Shown here piece after piece: positions 54,714 to 64,000 of a stretch of 64,000 nt of DNA. The translations under genes and the position numbers were made by a program. The DNA is from Neomelitea salexigens DSM 19753 (lineage in GTDB: Bacteria > Pseudomonadota > Gammaproteobacteria > Pseudomonadales > Spongiibacteraceae). The stretch lies in the NCBI RefSeq assembly GCF_000422345.1, contig NZ_AULP01000002.1:62001-126000 (forward strand), written 5' to 3'. How positions within the stretch are numbered: the first letter of the stretch is position 1; every line of letters starts with the position of its first letter. Below the pieces are notes generated by a model that saw nothing but the letters and a program-made list of their open reading frames with translations, was not told the origin of the DNA and made no database searches.

Positions 54714-54862
54714 CGGCCGTGGAAACTACGCATGTTCGACAGTGCAAGTGCACACTAGCATTACAGGTGTTATTGCCACGGCGTTTGATGTACTGACGAG
54801 ACAGGGAGTTCGGGTACCGCACAGCCGCGGCGTCGTTATTGGCCGGTGCTCAGGGAGCAGTC

Positions 54863-57800
54863 ATGAACTTGTTCCTCCAAAAACTCCGTCGTCACAGCGG
54901 ATCACGCCAACCTGCTGTGGGTCGCTCCCGCCGTTGGCTGCACCCACTGGCCAGCCTAGCCAGTTTTATGATTATCGCCGTCGTCGCGATGTATATCGAC
55001 CAGCTGAATAACCACAACCGCGAGTTGAATCACCGCGACGCCGTTCTGCGAGAAATGGGTTCCATCAGCGCTAAAGTAGAGAGTGACCTCAAGGGTGACC
55101 TCCAGGCAGCCAAAGCGATGGTGGCGGCCGTCCGCCAGCACCCCGACCTCACCCCCGATTATTTGGATAAATATTCCGAAAGCCTGCTCTCCGGTGAAAG
55201 CCGCATTCGCAGCGTTGCGGTATTTCGCGGTGTCATCGGCGCCTATGTCTATCCACTCGAGGGCAATGAGCCGGTGCTGGGGCTGGACTTAAGAACGCGG
55301 CCTGACCAACTCGCCGACATGATGAAGGTACATAGAACAGGCGGCGCCGTACTCTCGGGCCCTGTCGAATTGGTTCAAGGCGGAATGGCGCTTATTGCCC
55401 GTCTACCCGGTGGCCAGAGTCAAGGTGCTGGAGAGCCTATGACGGTGTCGGCCGTGATTGATATAGACCAGCTCCTGCTTAGCAGTGGCCTCAGTGAGGC
55501 AGGCGAGGGATTGCAGATAGCCATACGCAAATACGGGCCCGAGGGTCACTTAGGTAAAACCGTATTTGGCAACGCCGCGCTATTTAACGACCAGACTCGC
55601 GCGGTCACCACGGATATCCGACTACCGCTGGATGAGCGCTGGCAAATCGCCGCGGCTCCCGAGAACGGCTGGCTGCAGGTGAACCTGCTTGACCCCTTCC
55701 GGGTCGTTGTCGCGTCGCTGGCACTAATCATTTTTTGCTTCCTAACGATTATTTCGTGGCTGCTTGCCAAGCGCTATGAAAGCAATCAACTATTGGTTCA
55801 GCTGTTCGAGCTATCGCCGATTGGCATTGCATTAAACGACTACGAAACAGGCAAATTCATCGCCGCCAATCAGTCTCTGTGCAAAAGCTTAGGCTACCCT
55901 CACGATCAGTTAACAGATATATGCTATCAAGAACTGACCCCTCCAGAGTACATTCTTGATGATGAGGCAGCGCTGATCATTTTGACCGAGACGGGGCGCT
56001 TAGATCGGTATGAGAAACACCTCGTTCGCGCTGATGGCAAAACGGTGCCAATAGAAATTAACAGCATTTTGTTCAGCGACTCCCACGGCACCCCTCGAAT
56101 CTGGTCAATGATTGAGGACATCAGTGAGCGCAAGCACGCCGCCCAGATAATGGACCGGCAGCAACAAATGTTTAACTCCATGAGCCAGCAAGCAAGGATC
56201 GGCGCCTGGGAGCTGGAGGTAGATAGCGGCCAGCTCACCTGGTCTGAGGTGACAAGGGAAATTTGCGGTGTACCGGCAAACTTTACCCCAACTGAAGAGG
56301 CGCTTCGCAAGGTGTTTCCTCAGGAAGAGATGTGGCACCTGCTACAGCATTTGATCAGACGCGCCATTGTTAATGGCCAAGCATTTAGCGAAGAAGTGAG
56401 GCTTACTACACAACAAGGCCGCGAACTGTGGATTCAGCTCACGGGCCACCCGGTACTGCACAAGCAACGTTGCACACACATTTTCGGCTCGCTCCAAGAT
56501 ATTGATGACCGCAAACGCGCTGCCGAAGCATTGATACGCGCCCGTGATGAAGCGGAGCAAGCCGCTCGCTCGAAAAGTGAGTTTTTGGCAACCATGAGCC
56601 ACGAAATTCGCACTCCGATGAACGGCGTCCTCGGCATGCTGAATTTGCTGGCAAACTCCGAGCTCGACTTCGAGCAGGAGCGCCGAGTGAGCATTGCCCG
56701 CAGCAGCGCACATTCGCTGCTCTCCCTTATCGACGATGTCCTCGACTTCTCCCGTATCGACGCCGGTAAAATGGAGTTGGAAGACAGCAGCTTTGCGATA
56801 CGCGAAGTCATCGAAGAAGTCTGCGAGAGTATGTCGTTGCGCGCTCAGGAAAAAGGCCTGGAGCTCATTGTTGACCTCAGCGAGATCAAGGTAGACATGG
56901 TCTCAGGCGACGCCGCAAGGCTGCGCCAGGTCCTGACCAACTTACTTGGCAACGCACTAAAATTTACCGAAAGCGGCGAGATCGTTGTTCACGCCACGCT
57001 CACCGAGCATCAAAACCAATGGATATTTGACTGCTATGTACGCGACACCGGCATCGGCATTGCCAGTGAAAAATTAGACAGCCTGTTTAGCGCATTCACC
57101 CAGGCGGATGCCAGCACCACGCGCCGCTACGGCGGCTCCGGACTTGGCCTGTCGATTAGTCAGAAAATCTGCCAAGCCATGAATGGCAGCATTGCCGTTA
57201 GCAGCAAGGAAAACAAAGGAAGTACCTTCCATGTCCAGGTGATGCTGAATTCATCCGCCGATGCCTCATTCGATGAGGCCTATGCATCGGGCAGGCATGT
57301 ATGGTTGATAGAGGACAATATAAACAGCTGCAAAAGCCTGGAGCGTCAGCTGCTGCGTTGGGGCGCAAAAGTCTATTGCTCTACATCCAGTGAGTCTGCG
57401 CTCAACTCTGCCGAGAGTCATGACATTCCGCTGGAAAAAATCGACCTGGTTATTATCGACCGATACATGGATGGCTTAGACGGCACCGAGCTCGTTCAAT
57501 TCCTGCGCCAGGAAGAACATCTGAGCAGCCAGCCTTTTGTACTGCTTAGCAAAATCAGTAGCCAGGGAACCGACGCCCACTTTCGCTCGCTGGGCTTCGA
57601 CGCTTGGTATCCCAAACCCCTCACCACCAGCAATTTGCGCGAAGTACTAAAACTGGCGCCACTGGGAAGCTACCTGCAAAGCGATAGCCGCGACCGTATG
57701 CAGGATGCACCGGCTAGTAGTCTATTACAGGGCAGGCGCGTGCTACTGGTTGAGGACAATGCGGTAAACCAAGAGGTAGTGCGCTGCCTGCTAGACGAGT

Positions 57801-58537
57801 TGGGCTTACAGGTGAGCATCGCCGGTAACGGCAACAAGGCGATCGCCGCGCTGAAGTACCAGCAGGACAAACAAGCGCCGCCCTACTCCGCTATTTTAAT
57901 GGACTGTCAGATGCCGGAAATGGATGGCTACGAGTGCACTCGCCAAATCCGAGCGGGTCTGGCAGGCGAAGCGGCACGCGAGCTACCCATTATCGCGTTG
58001 ACCGCCAACGCGCTCAGTGGCGACCGAGAGAAATGCAGCGCTGCCGGTATGGATGACTACCTCAGTAAACCGATTGATCCCGACCGGCTGCACAAAAAAT
58101 TGCTGAGCTGGTTGCACGCCTCGCGCAGTGACGACCCTGCCACCCCCTCATCCAAGAGTCATGCCGAGGCGCTATGGAATGCCGACAAAGCACTGGAAGG
58201 GGTCATGGGCCAGGAGCGCACCCTGAATAAAATGCTGTTGATGTTCAACGAGTACAGCGTTGCGCAACAGCAGGCGTTACGCAGCGCCGTCACCGCAGCA
58301 GACACCGCAGAAATAGCGCGTATCAGCCGTGCGCTTAAGGGCAGTAGCGGACAGCTGCAAGGCGACGCACTGCGCGAGCTGGCCTCATCACTGGAACTTG
58401 CCGCCAGCAATAAGGACTGGGAAAAAATCCACTATTTCTATCCCCAGCTCCACCAGTGCTGGCGACAGCTATGCGCATGCTTTGAACAGCATTTGCTACG
58501 CAACACCAACGAAAGCCGCGCGCTAATAGAGGGTTAA
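54863..58537 (+). CDS. Hybrid sensor histidine kinase with degenerate Hpt domain
   Basis: From ATG 54863, after GGGAG at 54853-54857, the 1224-residue inner-membrane protein has a helix at about 28-46, a periplasmic CHASE-like sensor (about 50-280) and a helix at about 283-303. Two PAS domains (about 310-425 and 435-555) follow, then HisKA with His580 (MSHEIRTPMNG), HATPase (NLLGNALKF, GSGLGLSIS), two receivers with Asp866 (IIDRYMDG) and Asp1014 (MDCQMPEMDG) and a C-terminal Hpt-like domain. The Hpt segment reads SRALKGSSGQLQG, with Arg1156 where the phospho-His should be. No response regulator is adjacent. Confidence 0.92.
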   Translation: MNLFLQKLRRHSGSRQPAVGRSRRWLHPLASLASFMIIAVVAMYIDQLNNHNRELNHRDAVLREMGSISAKVESDLKGDLQAAKAMVAAVRQHPDLTPDYLDKYSESLLSGESRIRSVAVFRGVIGAYVYPLEGNEPVLGLDLRTRPDQLADMMKVHRTGGAVLSGPVELVQGGMALIARLPGGQSQGAGEPMTVSAVIDIDQLLLSSGLSEAGEGLQIAIRKYGPEGHLGKTVFGNAALFNDQTRAVTTDIRLPLDERWQIAAAPENGWLQVNLLDPFRVVVASLALIIFCFLTIISWLLAKRYESNQLLVQLFELSPIGIALNDYETGKFIAANQSLCKSLGYPHDQLTDICYQELTPPEYILDDEAALIILTETGRLDRYEKHLVRADGKTVPIEINSILFSDSHGTPRIWSMIEDISERKHAAQIMDRQQQMFNSMSQQARIGAWELEVDSGQLTWSEVTREICGVPANFTPTEEALRKVFPQEEMWHLLQHLIRRAIVNGQAFSEEVRLTTQQGRELWIQLTGHPVLHKQRCTHIFGSLQDIDDRKRAAEALIRARDEAEQAARSKSEFLATMSHEIRTPMNGVLGMLNLLANSELDFEQERRVSIARSSAHSLLSLIDDVLDFSRIDAGKMELEDSSFAIREVIEEVCESMSLRAQEKGLELIVDLSEIKVDMVSGDAARLRQVLTNLLGNALKFTESGEIVVHATLTEHQNQWIFDCYVRDTGIGIASEKLDSLFSAFTQADASTTRRYGGSGLGLSISQKICQAMNGSIAVSSKENKGSTFHVQVMLNSSADASFDEAYASGRHVWLIEDNINSCKSLERQLLRWGAKVYCSTSSESALNSAESHDIPLEKIDLVIIDRYMDGLDGTELVQFLRQEEHLSSQPFVLLSKISSQGTDAHFRSLGFDAWYPKPLTTSNLREVLKLAPLGSYLQSDSRDRMQDAPASSLLQGRRVLLVEDNAVNQEVVRCLLDELGLQVSIAGNGNKAIAALKYQQDKQAPPYSAILMDCQMPEMDGYECTRQIRAGLAGEAARELPIIALTANALSGDREKCSAAGMDDYLSKPIDPDRLHKKLLSWLHASRSDDPATPSSKSHAEALWNADKALEGVMGQERTLNKMLLMFNEYSVAQQQALRSAVTAADTAEIARISRALKGSSGQLQGDALRELASSLELAASNKDWEKIHYFYPQLHQCWRQLCACFEQHLLRNTNESRALIEG

Positions 58538-59772: not shown

Positions 59773-62700
59773 TTAGTCGCGTAGATAGACGCCGCTATTC
59801 CCGTAGCCATCCACCACCGCTACCCGCTCGGTGTCCGCTTCGATAACTACGCTTGAGCGAGGCACCGCACGACTGTCGATCGTCCATCGATCTGTTATGT
59901 CTGCGGTATTGCCGAAGCTATCGACGGCAATAATCGACGAGATCTTACGAATCGGCGCAGCCTCATCTTCTGGGACAAAGGGGTCGATAACACGGCGAGT
60001 ATCGGGCAACACAGGGTAGTTCAGCGTTAAGCTATCCTGCTCTTCAATAAGGGCGAGGTTGGTGGCCGGGCTTACCTCAAAAGCTTGAGAGACCAGGTGG
60101 TAACCTTCCTCTGCTAGCGAAGGTGACAATGCTGAACCCGATACAACAAACCGGTAGTTTCCAACCGGCCAGTCTAGCGGCACTTCGAAATCGACAAGCC
60201 AAATATGTCGACCGCTGCTCAAGCGGTACTTTAGCTGCATTTCAAAGAAGGTATTGAGGGCATCGCCATTGGCGCGGGTAACCGGCTGCCACGCGCCGTT
60301 ACGCTCAACTTGCATTAGCACGGAGGGCGTACCGAGAACAGGGTCCCCGCCCTCAAAAGCAAACTCGGTTCGCTTAAATCGAGATATGGCTCGTGGTTGA
60401 GAAATACTGCTGCCCGCGAGCATGCTGGGCAAGGCTTGCGCATTGACTTGCGAGTCATAGTGCTGGCGGTAGTGCTCATAGCGCACGACTAGCTCGTCCA
60501 TAGGTGCCGCACTGCCGTCTCGAAGCGACTCTAGCAACTCCACGGTTACATCAAGAAAGCGCTCGCCCTGCTTCCAACCCCAAAACGTTGTGGTTGATTC
60601 CGCCCCACCCAATGTTGCCCAATCCTCCTCTTCGGGCGGCAAGATATAGCCAATGTGATCACCGGCATAACCCCATATAAAGGTGTCGTCGTAGCGATAG
60701 CGCTCCCCACCTCCCAGTTCGGCAGCTGCATCGAGTAAACGCAGGCCGTATTCAGTAAGCGGTTCACCCGGCTGCATCAACAGCGTTAGCTCGCCAATTT
60801 TTTGAGCTGCAATGATCGTGTCCTGCGGGTAAAACGAGGCGTTTTCGGCAACACCATTGTCGGCGAGATCGTAGGCATCTGGCGGTGGTGAAGGCAGGCA
60901 ATACGGAACCTGCTCGGGCAGGCCATTTCCCTCATAGCCCGGCACGTCTTTCAGGCCAGCCCCCACAAAGGGAACCGCAATGTCGTTGCCGCACTGCCCG
61001 GCACCCCAGGCGTAGGGAAACTCCTCAGGGCTATAACCCAGCCGGTCGCGATCGAGGATTATCCGCTTAGACACACTGCGAAGATCAGGGGATAGCTGGA
61101 ACTGTTCAATGCTGTCGGCTATAACTTTTATTTGCGGAGCAAGGCGACGTCCATAGCTTTCGATACGCTGCAGTTTATTCTGATGAATATTGCTACGCGG
61201 GCTAATATCTCCAGCCGCACTCTGCACCAACATCGCCAGTGGTAACGCCATAAGTTGCTCAGTTGCTCTTTCTACTGACGCCAGCACATCCCCTGAGAAG
61301 TATTGGTTCTCCACGTCAAAAGCAATGCCGTGAGCCGCCCAATTGATAATCACCGCCAGTGGCTCAGGCTCAGTGTTATCCAAGGCATCGATGCGAATCA
61401 CACCAAGGCGGCGGTGAAGGGCTTGCAGCCTATCGTCGTCGTAGCTGGGTAAACGCCCACGACGAAAGCCGTTCATTCCCAACGCTTCCTGAGCACTACC
61501 GTGACCAATGCGCGCCAAGCGCATATTGTCATCGTCCAATGCCGTCACCACTACCGCTGCCAATTGCGCAACGACTCTGCGGTAGACTTCGTGCTGGTAC
61601 AGATCCATCGCCAACCAAAAATAGCGTGCAGAGTGGTTGGCAAGCGCCCCAGGCCCATCGTGGCTGTGAGTCGCAGAGAGTACCAATCCATCGCCAAGCG
61701 CGATCCCCGTTTGCCGTTGCACTTCGTCTTTTACATCTTCCGCTAGTTCGTTAAGAGCGCCGATGAAATCGGTTTTCAACAATACGATGTAGTCGCGACC
61801 ATCGTGCAGGGCAATGGCTTTGGCAACCAGTGAATCGTAGTAACCTCGGCTCGGCGGCGAATAACTTGCGTAGGGGGAGTGAACCGCACGCAACTCATCG
61901 GGCAAAGGTGCCAGAGGAGGACAGCTTTCAGGGTGGTCGGGCTCGCAACCGTCAGCCATGTATGGAATGAAGTCGACCAGCTCATCAAAGAATGTTTGAA
62001 AATCACCTGAGGCAAAGCCTTCGGCACCGGGAATATAGTCACCAGCAACAGGTGGCCTTAGGTAGCCACCTAGCGGAGTACCAACTGGAATATCAATCGG
62101 CGCCTTGGCGATACCTGCACGCAGCGGCATAACCGAGTGAGCCTGCGGTTGCTCTTTGGTCTGTGGCTGAGGCTGCTCAAGCCCCGACTCAGCCCCCACA
62201 GCCATCATCACTTGGCGCAGCGCATTGGCTGAATTTTCTTGCAGGCCAGCTAATACCGCATCTCCCGCCTTTTGGAACTCGCCATCGCGCATTTGCTCAA
62301 CGGCCGCGCTGAAAGCACGGGTATCGATAGGCAGAGTCTCACCATCGACCACTACTGGTTCGCCGACAATAGTCACGGGGGCAGGTAACGGCGGGCAGTC
62401 CAATGGTCCCCGTACTTCTCGCGCTATCCATGTATCGAGTAGCTGTCCCTGGCTATGTAGAAAGTGCGATTTTTGACATTTTGCGTGCGGCGCCGCTCGA
62501 GGGTAGCCATGGGGGTCGAAATCATCTCCCCTGGGCGCGACATTACCGATAGGTGGGCTTTGTGTTTTTCCTTCATCTAGCTCTATAAAGCCAGACTTGC
62601 TGCTGCGGCAAGGGCCCTGGCAACTGCCGCTGTCATAACCCTCGCCGTCTCGCCCAGCGAGCGCCAAGCCCCAAAATGCGTCGACGTCTGGGTCGCGCTC

Positions 62701-64000
62701 GGCAAAGAACGCCTCTCGAGATGCGAAGGTATAGGTTGCGCTGTCGCCTGGGCGACGCGGGTAAATATCAGCGACCTCAACGCCAATGGTTCGCGCCATC
62801 ACCTGGGCGCTCCAGTGTGTCACTTGGTGGTCCGCAAAAGCCGGCTGCAGCAGGACTTGATTGTCGGGCCCATTTAAGGCGCTATTGTCGGCGATATGGT
62901 GGGCATAACCATTATTCTCGGACCGATCCCACAGCATCTGGATGAGTGCAAACCCCAAGTCGCGATCCAGGTCATCCTGGTAGGAAAGATAGAGAGGTGT
63001 AGCGTAGGACGGCAAGCCTCCCGGCTCGTATTCCGCGTCAAAATCAACACTGCGCCTCAGCAGGGTTGAGTAGTTCATACCAACGACACCAAATACTCCG
63101 CGCTTCACATCCTTGGACATAGCGACGATCGGTCCTCCGGTAATGCCCCCCTGGGAGTTGCCGTCGTAAAAGATCTCTCTATGGTCGAAAACAGGCAGGC
63201 CCTTGGCATCCTGAAAGACGGCCTCTGCCGCAAAACCAGCCGGGTGGCGCATAGCCCTGGCAAGGAATAGAAAATTCAACAGCCCCTGCTGGGAAGCATC
63301 TGGGATCACCGCGAAATTGGATAAATCGACCAGCGCTGCCAAGACATTGGGAACATCCCCTGTCGAGAAACCGAACAGGTCGACACCACAAAACAGGAAA
63401 TTGTATTCACGGCTGAAATTCGGCACGTGGTCGTATGTCACCGCCTGGTGACCATCCAATAAGCCATGCCCATATATCCCTCCCCTTGCCGGGTTTTCCG
63501 AGCTGGCTTGCTCGGGGATTTGGCAGGTAAATCGCGTTGTCATTTCACCCAGGCTGTCGGGCAAGCCATCCCCGTAGCTCGCCCCGGCGGTATCGAAGGC
63601 GGGTGCATCGAGGGGGTCAAAGTACAGCCGGTTGGGCTGCACTGAGCCGCCATCTGCAATACCCACCCCTTCAAACAAGGTATCGCAAGCTTCGCGCATT
63701 TCCTCCGGAAGCTGTACACACAATTGCTCGGCATAGATGCTGAGCTGGTCCAGTGGCGCTGGGTCGGCGGGGATGACAAAGCTCGGCACGGTGATCGTGC
63801 CCTCGATACGCCTAGCAATCCCTTCCCTGGGATTCTCCGTCACTTTGTCGATCGTATAATCTGGCGCTCGACCTAAATCGGTGATGTTCCCCTGGGCGTC
63901 TTCGAGCTGACCGAGCTGTTTAAAGGCTTCATCACGCATATGGCGTAATCTACCCACATTGTTTTCCGCACTGGCAACGGTAAAGTCCCACGCCAGATAC
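59773..64000 (-). CDS. Fusion of alpha/beta-hydrolase and neutral ceramidase-like domains (5' end outside window)
   Basis: The frame stays open to the window edge, so 1408 residues are visible and the start is missing. The first about 600 residues are hydrolase-like: oxyanion region IYGHGLLDG, nucleophile elbow YDGNSQGGITGG, and a late His in DHQVTHWS. From about 62130 the rest resembles neutral ceramidase: IAKAPIDIPVGTPLGGYLRP, zinc-ligand segments LSATHSHDGPGA and WAAHGIAFD, and the catalytic Ser region SAAGDISPRSN. A beta-rich C-terminal domain ends the protein. It is probably secreted and hydrolyses ester or amide lipids. The two-domain union is unusual. Confidence 0.82.
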   Translation of the reverse strand, partial: YLAWDFTVASAENNVGRLRHMRDEAFKQLGQLEDAQGNITDLGRAPDYTIDKVTENPREGIARRIEGTITVPSFVIPADPAPLDQLSIYAEQLCVQLPEEMREACDTLFEGVGIADGGSVQPNRLYFDPLDAPAFDTAGASYGDGLPDSLGEMTTRFTCQIPEQASSENPARGGIYGHGLLDGHQAVTYDHVPNFSREYNFLFCGVDLFGFSTGDVPNVLAALVDLSNFAVIPDASQQGLLNFLFLARAMRHPAGFAAEAVFQDAKGLPVFDHREIFYDGNSQGGITGGPIVAMSKDVKRGVFGVVGMNYSTLLRRSVDFDAEYEPGGLPSYATPLYLSYQDDLDRDLGFALIQMLWDRSENNGYAHHIADNSALNGPDNQVLLQPAFADHQVTHWSAQVMARTIGVEVADIYPRRPGDSATYTFASREAFFAERDPDVDAFWGLALAGRDGEGYDSGSCQGPCRSSKSGFIELDEGKTQSPPIGNVAPRGDDFDPHGYPRAAPHAKCQKSHFLHSQGQLLDTWIAREVRGPLDCPPLPAPVTIVGEPVVVDGETLPIDTRAFSAAVEQMRDGEFQKAGDAVLAGLQENSANALRQVMMAVGAESGLEQPQPQTKEQPQAHSVMPLRAGIAKAPIDIPVGTPLGGYLRPPVAGDYIPGAEGFASGDFQTFFDELVDFIPYMADGCEPDHPESCPPLAPLPDELRAVHSPYASYSPPSRGYYDSLVAKAIALHDGRDYIVLLKTDFIGALNELAEDVKDEVQRQTGIALGDGLVLSATHSHDGPGALANHSARYFWLAMDLYQHEVYRRVVAQLAAVVVTALDDDNMRLARIGHGSAQEALGMNGFRRGRLPSYDDDRLQALHRRLGVIRIDALDNTEPEPLAVIINWAAHGIAFDVENQYFSGDVLASVERATEQLMALPLAMLVQSAAGDISPRSNIHQNKLQRIESYGRRLAPQIKVIADSIEQFQLSPDLRSVSKRIILDRDRLGYSPEEFPYAWGAGQCGNDIAVPFVGAGLKDVPGYEGNGLPEQVPYCLPSPPPDAYDLADNGVAENASFYPQDTIIAAQKIGELTLLMQPGEPLTEYGLRLLDAAAELGGGERYRYDDTFIWGYAGDHIGYILPPEEEDWATLGGAESTTTFWGWKQGERFLDVTVELLESLRDGSAAPMDELVVRYEHYRQHYDSQVNAQALPSMLAGSSISQPRAISRFKRTEFAFEGGDPVLGTPSVLMQVERNGAWQPVTRANGDALNTFFEMQLKYRLSSGRHIWLVDFEVPLDWPVGNYRFVVSGSALSPSLAEEGYHLVSQAFEVSPATNLALIEEQDSLTLNYPVLPDTRRVIDPFVPEDEAAPIRKISSIIAVDSFGNTADITDRWTIDSRAVPRSSVVIEADTERVAVVDGYGNSGVYLRD

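Follow-up and report, generated by a model that had tools for sequence, protein, structure and literature searches.

Annotation of the locus

The window, a stretch of 64,000 nucleotides from the genome of Neomelitea salexigens DSM 19753 (G000:C2:62001-126000), ends within a giant gene for a predicted multidomain hydrolase, whose open frame runs past the window edge to window position 68004 (G000:C2:121773-130004). The upstream sequence supplied the missing 5′ end and gave a complete gene product of 2,743 amino acids, starting from an ATG at window position 68004 that is preceded by an AAGGAGG site; both are conserved in Spongiibacter marinus. The surrounding open frame spans 2,819 amino acids in this genome. 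From the N-terminus to the C-terminus, the protein consists of a lipobox signal peptide, an N-terminal domain, thrombospondin-3 (TSP3) repeats, a Calx-beta-like domain, a first ceramidase-type domain (Cer1, residues ~574-1130), an alpha/beta hydrolase domain (AB, residues ~1160-1954) and a second ceramidase-type domain (Cer2, residues ~2023-2813). Residues are numbered as in P0001, where the count begins at an upstream GTG and the ATG is residue 71. The architecture of one chain with three hydrolase-type modules is well supported. The features of the gene, in window coordinates and all on the minus strand, are the following:

59773-64000 (-): part of the gene inside the window, an open frame reaching the window edge, 1,408 amino acids
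59776-62148 (-): Cer2, neutral-ceramidase-type domain with C-terminal part (Pfam PF04734; hhalign to P0002)
59776-60417 (-): C-terminal part of Cer2, aligned to the canonical ceramidase C-terminal domain, boundary approximate
60646-60648 (-): Tyr2523 of Cer2 (= Tyr448 of Pseudomonas aeruginosa ceramidase), predicted zinc ligand, 8/8 sequences
60763-60765 (-): Glu2484 of Cer2 (= Glu411), predicted zinc ligand, 8/8 sequences
61201-61203 (-): Ser2338 of Cer2 in GDISP (= Ser274), 8/8 sequences
61330-61332 (-): His2295 of Cer2 (= His204), predicted zinc ligand, 8/8 sequences
61666-61668 (-): His2183 of Cer2 (= His97), predicted zinc ligand, 8/8 sequences, mapped via P0002 and 2zws
62149-62352 (-): linker between AB and Cer2, about 68 residues, dN/dS 0.20 (weak constraint)
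62353-64000 (-), continuing upstream to about 64737: AB (own hidden Markov model [HMM], 1397 bits; AlphaFold model; fold matches)
62509-62511 (-): His1902 of AB, predicted catalytic, an invariant column (H743 of A3)
62830-62832 (-): Asp1795 of AB, predicted catalytic acid, invariant in 30/30 sequences, after the strand at model residues 627-630
63154-63156 (-): Ser1687 of AB, predicted nucleophile in GNSQGG, invariant in 30/30 sequences
about 64825-66495 (-), outside the window, upstream of AB: Cer1, ceramidase-fold domain (own HMM, hhalign, predicted structure)
about 66508-67413 (-), outside the window: TSP3 repeats and Calx-beta-like domain (profile matches)
67945-68004 (-), outside the window: lipobox signal peptide with cysteine C90 (own lipobox pattern)

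Integrity of the reading frame

The preliminary description, made from the window, proposed a fusion of an N-terminal alpha/beta hydrolase with a C-terminal neutral ceramidase, and considered that a frame error near position 62130 might have joined two genes. The open frame and the four motifs on which it relied exist as claimed (GNSQGG at residue 1685, THSHDGPG at 2182, AAHGIAFD at 2293 and GDISP at 2335, all in frame), the frame being cut off only by the window edge. The fusion is real and conserved, but the supposed N-terminal half lies in the middle of the protein, with about two-thirds of AB visible in the window and Cer2 seen whole, and the description was incomplete in missing a second ceramidase-type domain, the anchor, the stalk and the modular family to which the protein belongs.

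The same uninterrupted fusion is found in an independent assembly, that of S. marinus DSM 17750 (L031; 2,751 amino acids from stop to stop), with 97% identity in Cer1, 98% in AB and 96% in Cer2, and AB is followed directly and in frame by Cer2 also in S. thalassae and in two frames of Nevskiaceae metagenome-assembled genomes (MAGs; L038, L039). The ratio of nonsynonymous to synonymous substitution rates (dN/dS), an own Nei-Gojobori estimate from the single pair of this gene and its S. marinus counterpart, is 0.049 in Cer1, 0.038 in AB and 0.059 in Cer2, compared with 0.18 in the N-terminal part, 0.11 in the TSP3 repeats and Calx-beta-like domain, and 0.27 in one neighbouring gene (methyltransferase-like by eye). 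Each of the three catalytic modules is under purifying selection. The linker of about 29 residues between Cer1 and AB gave 0.019, on 26 codons that are too few to be weighed. Because the open frame is the same in S. marinus and the catalytic modules on both sides of the suspected junction have low dN/dS, and with the recurrence of the AB-Cer2 junction elsewhere, the fusion of two adjacent genes by a sequencing frame error or an assembly artefact, for which no supporting evidence was found, is practically out of the question. A recent tandem duplication as the origin of Cer1 and Cer2 was likewise ruled out, their alignment identity being only about 22%.

The lipobox reads LFAC-GGG (MRAAYRVGLLAVVSLILFAC-GGG) and is conserved in S. 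marinus; it was recognised with an own pattern, without SignalP. The protein is probably a lipoprotein, as predicted from this sequence, and the glycine at position +2, the TSP3 stalk and a likeness to VolA that is considered below suggest that it may be exposed on the surface of the outer membrane. The TSP3 repeats occupy residues 268-459 approximately, and the Calx-beta-like domain (473-569) is recognised at 23 bits, below the cut-off of 27. A match to MtsC (91 bits versus a cut-off of 350) was attributed to the TSP3 repeats.

The ceramidase-type domains

Cer2 barely passes the Pfam profile PF04734 (Ceramidase_alk) with 32.3 bits versus a cut-off of 32.1. Over 557 columns it aligns by hhalign (P 95.6%, E 1.1e-8) with P0002, a separate neutral ceramidase of more canonical type that this genome also encodes (800 amino acids; L001:961-3363, minus strand, on G000:C12), which matches 2zws with an E value of 2.9e-92 and carries PF17048 at residues 652-792. 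The N-terminus of P0002 appears lipobox-like by eye. A phmmer search of solved structures with Cer2 returned 4wgk at E 0.46 amid chance matches, and the score against the NCBIfam neutral-ceramidase equivalog NF041649 was 37.2 bits of the 1200 required, even P0002 reaching only 299.2.

Cer1 was compared with Cer2 by hhalign (13 versus 8 sequences; P 97%, E 6.8e-11) and modelled with AlphaFold on the S. marinus domain (predicted local distance difference test score [pLDDT] 73.4). With this model, Foldseek returned just four matches at E < 0.001, all of them neutral ceramidase chains (best E 3.3e-19), and in VIA the model aligned with 2zws over 373 residues (Z 24.5, 3.2 Å, 19% identity), the first unrelated row having a Z score of 4.7. 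A sequence search of solved structures with Cer1 gave a single row, an unrelated enzyme at E 0.21. In our view the structure model settles the question, and Cer1 is predicted to have the neutral ceramidase fold.

The zinc ligands of 2ZWS, which we take to be His97, His204, Glu411 and Tyr448, were mapped onto both domains through the alignments of P0002 with 2zws, Cer1 with Cer2 and Cer2 with P0002. Their equivalents in Cer1 (H722, H817, E985 and Y1016) are held in 13/13 sequences. The serine position is held in 12 of these, the remaining one having alanine, and Cer1 has ADAS in place of the canonical G-D/N-x-S-P. The second histidine of the HxH motif maps to human His196, described as critical (PMC6952831), and is present in every sequence of both alignments. 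Further active-site residues described for the human enzyme are the catalytic tyrosine Tyr591 and Arg257 (PMC6952831), and an invariant pair of arginines lies in the region expected for Arg257.

The alpha/beta hydrolase domain

The AlphaFold model of the S. marinus AB domain (pLDDT 84.2, predicted template modelling score 0.88) is an alpha/beta hydrolase, in agreement with the preliminary description, and its best re-aligned fold match is the CE7 acetyl esterase 3m81 (Z 19.1, 12% identity). The predicted triad, S528, D636 and H743 in A3 numbering, has the canonical order Ser-acid-His. On this model AB is an esterase-like alpha/beta hydrolase, the acid and the histidine being assigned by conservation and order. 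A sequence search of solved structures with AB found no relative at E values up to 1, and a search of a plasmid collection found no match. Among 30 AB sequences, ten reach the VolA/Pla-1 model (NCBIfam TIGR03502) at E values up to 0.01 (best E 4.8e-6); when ten sequences were rescanned, three matched, all confined to positions 156-305 of the model's 790, in its N-terminal part. AB may thus resemble VolA/Pla-1 distantly, which is a lead only, membership of that family being unsupported.

Modular giants and split genes among relatives

A scan of GTDB genome contigs yielded 392 stretches encoding AB relatives, of which the best 80 were used, giving 79 loci. Module profiles of these loci revealed single-enzyme AB genes in Actinomycetota, Myxococcota and Solimonas, and multi-module frames in a set of Gammaproteobacteria. 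The labels S15 and P (S9) derive from Pfam matches and the label Y from a sub-cut-off match to DUF3604. W is a third ceramidase-type module (hhalign to Cer2, P 99.5%) with an SH(N/S)H motif but lacking GDxSP, either fused or encoded by its own gene behind the giant (L050, L034:11098-14451, L047:6546-10445). Z is an unnamed module of about 740 amino acids without a Pfam match that is often last, right behind AB or Cer2 (for example L033:14945-17248, L036:9022-11274 and L040:12380-14737). Eight distinct module orders occur among the frames that are complete at both ends:

Cer1-AB-Cer2: this gene and S. marinus
S15-AB-Cer2-Z: S. thalassae, 3,697 amino acids
S15-Cer1-AB: Zhongshania antarctica, 3,387 amino acids, with an extra segment between S15 and Cer1 outside profile coverage
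Cer1-S15-AB: G011, 2,644 amino acids
Cer1-AB-W: an Abyssibacter MAG, 3,087 amino acids
Cer1-AB-Z: L036, L040, L041 and L044
Cer1-S15-S15-Y-S15-AB-P: G411, 6,307 amino acids
S15-AB: Alcanivorax, three loci, 1,958-1,986 amino acids

The longest frame seen, 8,600 amino acids with a run of N inside, belongs to the Spongiibacteraceae MAG UBA5047 (L032, or L020 and L021 joined; G019:C41) and has eleven modules in the order Cer1-AB-S15-AB-S15-Y-Cer2-Z-Y-P-W; the frame adjoining it carries a lipobox, TSP3 repeats and an S15 module, a sign that the protein may be longer still. Of 18 multi-module frames whose 5′ end is intact, the own pattern recognised a lipobox in 16, missing it in L034 and L050. Six stalks lack TSP3 repeats (L034, L036, L038, L039, L040, L044), and shifted matches within them, among those listed, suggest tandem repeats of about 95 residues.

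Elsewhere the modules are encoded by neighbouring genes. At two Alcanivorax loci (L048, L094), no more than about 40 bases separate a Cer1 lipoprotein gene from the S15-AB lipoprotein gene behind it; Stagnimonas aquatica and a Nevskiaceae MAG (L069, L085) have AB and Cer2 genes that overlap at ATGA; and every gene of these split loci has its own lipobox by the same pattern. A frame with the order Cer1-Cer2-Z-Y precedes an AB gene in L045, and a W gene lies closely behind the giant in L040 and L047. In an Actinomycetota MAG (L088:5898-9745), the gene right behind AB has Cer1-like motifs (GGWGGVP, YAAHP, GNLSPR and PGE; 38 bits to the own Cer1 profile), so that the link between AB and Cer1 may cross phyla. 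The split homologues amount to Rosetta-stone arguments that suggest a joint function of the modules.

A quick AB tree of 86 rows, midpoint-rooted for drawing, was built without the duplicate frames G013, G002, G001, G019 and L053 and without AB matches under 550 model positions. It gathers 24 of the 25 multi-module rows in one group of 28 (support 100), the exception being G411, with four single genes inside the group. In the Stagnimonas pair of AB and Cer2 genes, AB falls among the 53 single rows, outside the multi-module group, and AB and Cer2 therefore appear to have become linked on more than one occasion. The double AB copies of L032, L038 and L039 sit in different subclades, which also counts against a recent tandem duplication.

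The gene is an accessory trait. In the order, 24 of 293 genomes had AB, with frames over 2,000 amino acids in four, and in the class 15 of 369 genomes, where eight matches were under 25 bits and two genomes (G000 and G411) had frames over 2,000 amino acids. Cer1 was found in nine of the 369 genomes of the class (five under 50 bits) and Cer2 in three of 18 genomes of the genus.

On each side of the giant gene there is one large gene that by eye encodes a hybrid sensor kinase (window positions 54839-58537 and L004:11189-13753), and an isochorismatase-like gene is divergent from the giant.

Proposed function and alternatives

The interpretation favoured here, with a rough probability of 0.6, is that the gene encodes a single-chain multi-catalytic lipid hydrolase on the outer membrane that releases the acyl chains of ester- and amide-linked lipids, for which we infer substrate, exposure and catalysis. 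The lipid anchor and a calcium-binding stalk would keep the enzymes outside the cell, where AB (Ser1687) would cleave acyl esters while Cer1 (H722, H817, E985, Y1016) and Cer2 (H2183, H2295, E2484, Y2523) would cleave acyl amides by attack of zinc-bound water. The fusion would hold the three sites together, and it is therefore proposed that lipids of mixed ester/amide type, for example membrane sphingolipids or aminolipids, lose their acyl chains, which the cell would take up; lineages would gain or lose modules according to the lipids that they encounter. The stepwise attack on a complex lipid put forward in the preliminary description is thus plausible, whereas its suggestions of sponge or algal hosts and of a polyester target found no direct support, one of 30 AB sequences having matched a polyhydroxyalkanoate-depolymerase model (E 0.0027).

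Several observations weigh against this interpretation. Cer1 is below the Pfam PF04734 cut-off (23.3 versus 32.1 bits) and is therefore labelled only as having a neutral-ceramidase fold; a smaller, local hhalign comparison of Cer1 with Cer2 gave only 17%, the direct comparison of Cer1 with P0002 was weak (P 51%, 64 columns), and no equivalent of human Tyr591 was clearly identified in either alignment. Against Pfam, at E values up to 0.01, 29 of the 30 AB sequences had no match and the thirtieth a weak one (PF12262, E 0.0056); the best rescanned sequence scored 20.3 bits, far below the TIGR03502 cut-off of 383.9, and the S. marinus AB had no match to that model. FadL (PF03349) was not found in the genome, while three of 14 control genomes matched, Escherichia coli included; therefore a Vibrio-style uptake route is not supported. 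Among the neighbours of the 53 single AB rows, the Cer1 and Cer2 profiles recognised ceramidase-type genes only in L069, L085 and L088, the flanks differing in length, and AB is patchily distributed among relatives (8/57, including 5/18 genomes in the genus).

The alternative with the greatest weight, though still an unlikely one, is that the amide targets are not ceramides but ornithine-type aminolipids, N-acyl amino acids, acyl-homoserine lactones or synthetic polyamides, AB then hydrolysing the corresponding ester. Both domains are remote from characterised ceramidases (E 0.46 for Cer2 with 4wgk by phmmer, 19% identity of Cer1 with 2zws), the NF041649 equivalog is far off (37.2 versus 1200 bits), and the genome already encodes the more canonical ceramidase lipoprotein P0002; however, no positive evidence points to any of these substrates. 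It is considerably less probable that one ceramidase-type domain is catalytically dead and kept for binding or structure, as the ADAS sequence of Cer1 and the alanine in one of its 13 sequences might indicate, since the four zinc-ligand positions are invariant in all 13, Cer1 is under strong purifying selection, and G324 has a stand-alone Cer1 gene with a lipobox. Equally improbable is a polyprotein that is exported once and cut in the linkers into Cer1, AB and Cer2, the fusion serving co-delivery rather than joint catalysis. The linkers of about 29 and 68 residues, the second weakly constrained (dN/dS 0.20), separate the modules, related modules exist as separate genes in other genomes, and parts of one protein need not share a substrate; but a lipobox was seen only at the N-terminus of the fusion, so that the cut pieces would lose the anchor, whereas the split genes of the Alcanivorax and Stagnimonas type each bear their own, and the linker between Cer1 and AB is short.

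A more tentative extension of the lipid hydrolase interpretation, somewhat doubtful as yet, is that at least eight recurring modules (Cer1, Cer2, W, AB, S15-type, S9-type, DUF3604-like Y and Z) form combinatorial "lipid-digesting megaenzymes" of about 2,000 to at least 8,600 residues, joined in varying order on one lipid-anchored stalk, the order of modules constituting a degradation line whose make-up would set which lipid a given species can feed on.

Polysaccharide-degrading enzymes are known to be joined on one chain; if the proposed function is true, bacteria join lipid hydrolases on one chain as well, and the AB family, with 29 of 30 tested sequences lacking a Pfam match, gains a likely hydrolase function. 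The advantage of fusion on complex lipids could be tested with the isolates S. marinus DSM 17750, Zhongshania antarctica DSM 25701 and Alcanivorax limicola JB21.

Comparison with known systems

The ingredients of the protein are already known, and the fusion and the modular giants are apparently undescribed: no description of a two-ceramidase-plus-esterase fusion or of modular giants was found in the literature searched, which comprised CC-licensed papers only and is weak evidence of absence, and a survey of huge proteins (PMC11573180) contains neither the word ceramidase nor the word lipase.

Neutral/alkaline ceramidases (PF04734/PF17048; P. aeruginosa 2ZWS, human 4WGK) resemble Cer1 in predicted fold and Cer2 in profile, share the zinc-ligand positions with all sequences tested and the serine position with nearly all, and have a C-terminal domain to which Cer2 also aligns. 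The known ceramidases are stand-alone enzymes, whereas here two remote versions flank an esterase-type domain in one predicted lipoprotein. VolA sits on the cell surface as a lipoprotein and releases fatty acids from lipids outside the cell (PMC12208996, PMC5500766). The surface lysophospholipases of the VolA/Pla-1 type (TIGR03502) are similar in being lipoproteins with an alpha/beta hydrolase and in the N-terminal model match of some AB relatives, but the present protein differs in a match far below the cut-off, in its GNSQGG elbow and in its fusion to ceramidase-type domains. Of the solved folds in the re-aligned list, those of the CE7 acetyl (xylan) esterases and cephalosporin C deacetylase come closest to AB (Z up to 19.1 over about 290 residues); identity is about 12%, AB has many insertions and at least 110 extra residues ahead of the aligned region, and a shared fold does not show function.

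In multidomain glycoside hydrolases and polyketide synthases, a single chain bears several catalytic modules, and these are shuffled among relatives. Compared with such multi-catalytic single-chain enzymes, the modules here are predicted ester and amide hydrolases of the types found in lipid-enzyme families, and the chain that carries them is probably lipid-anchored.

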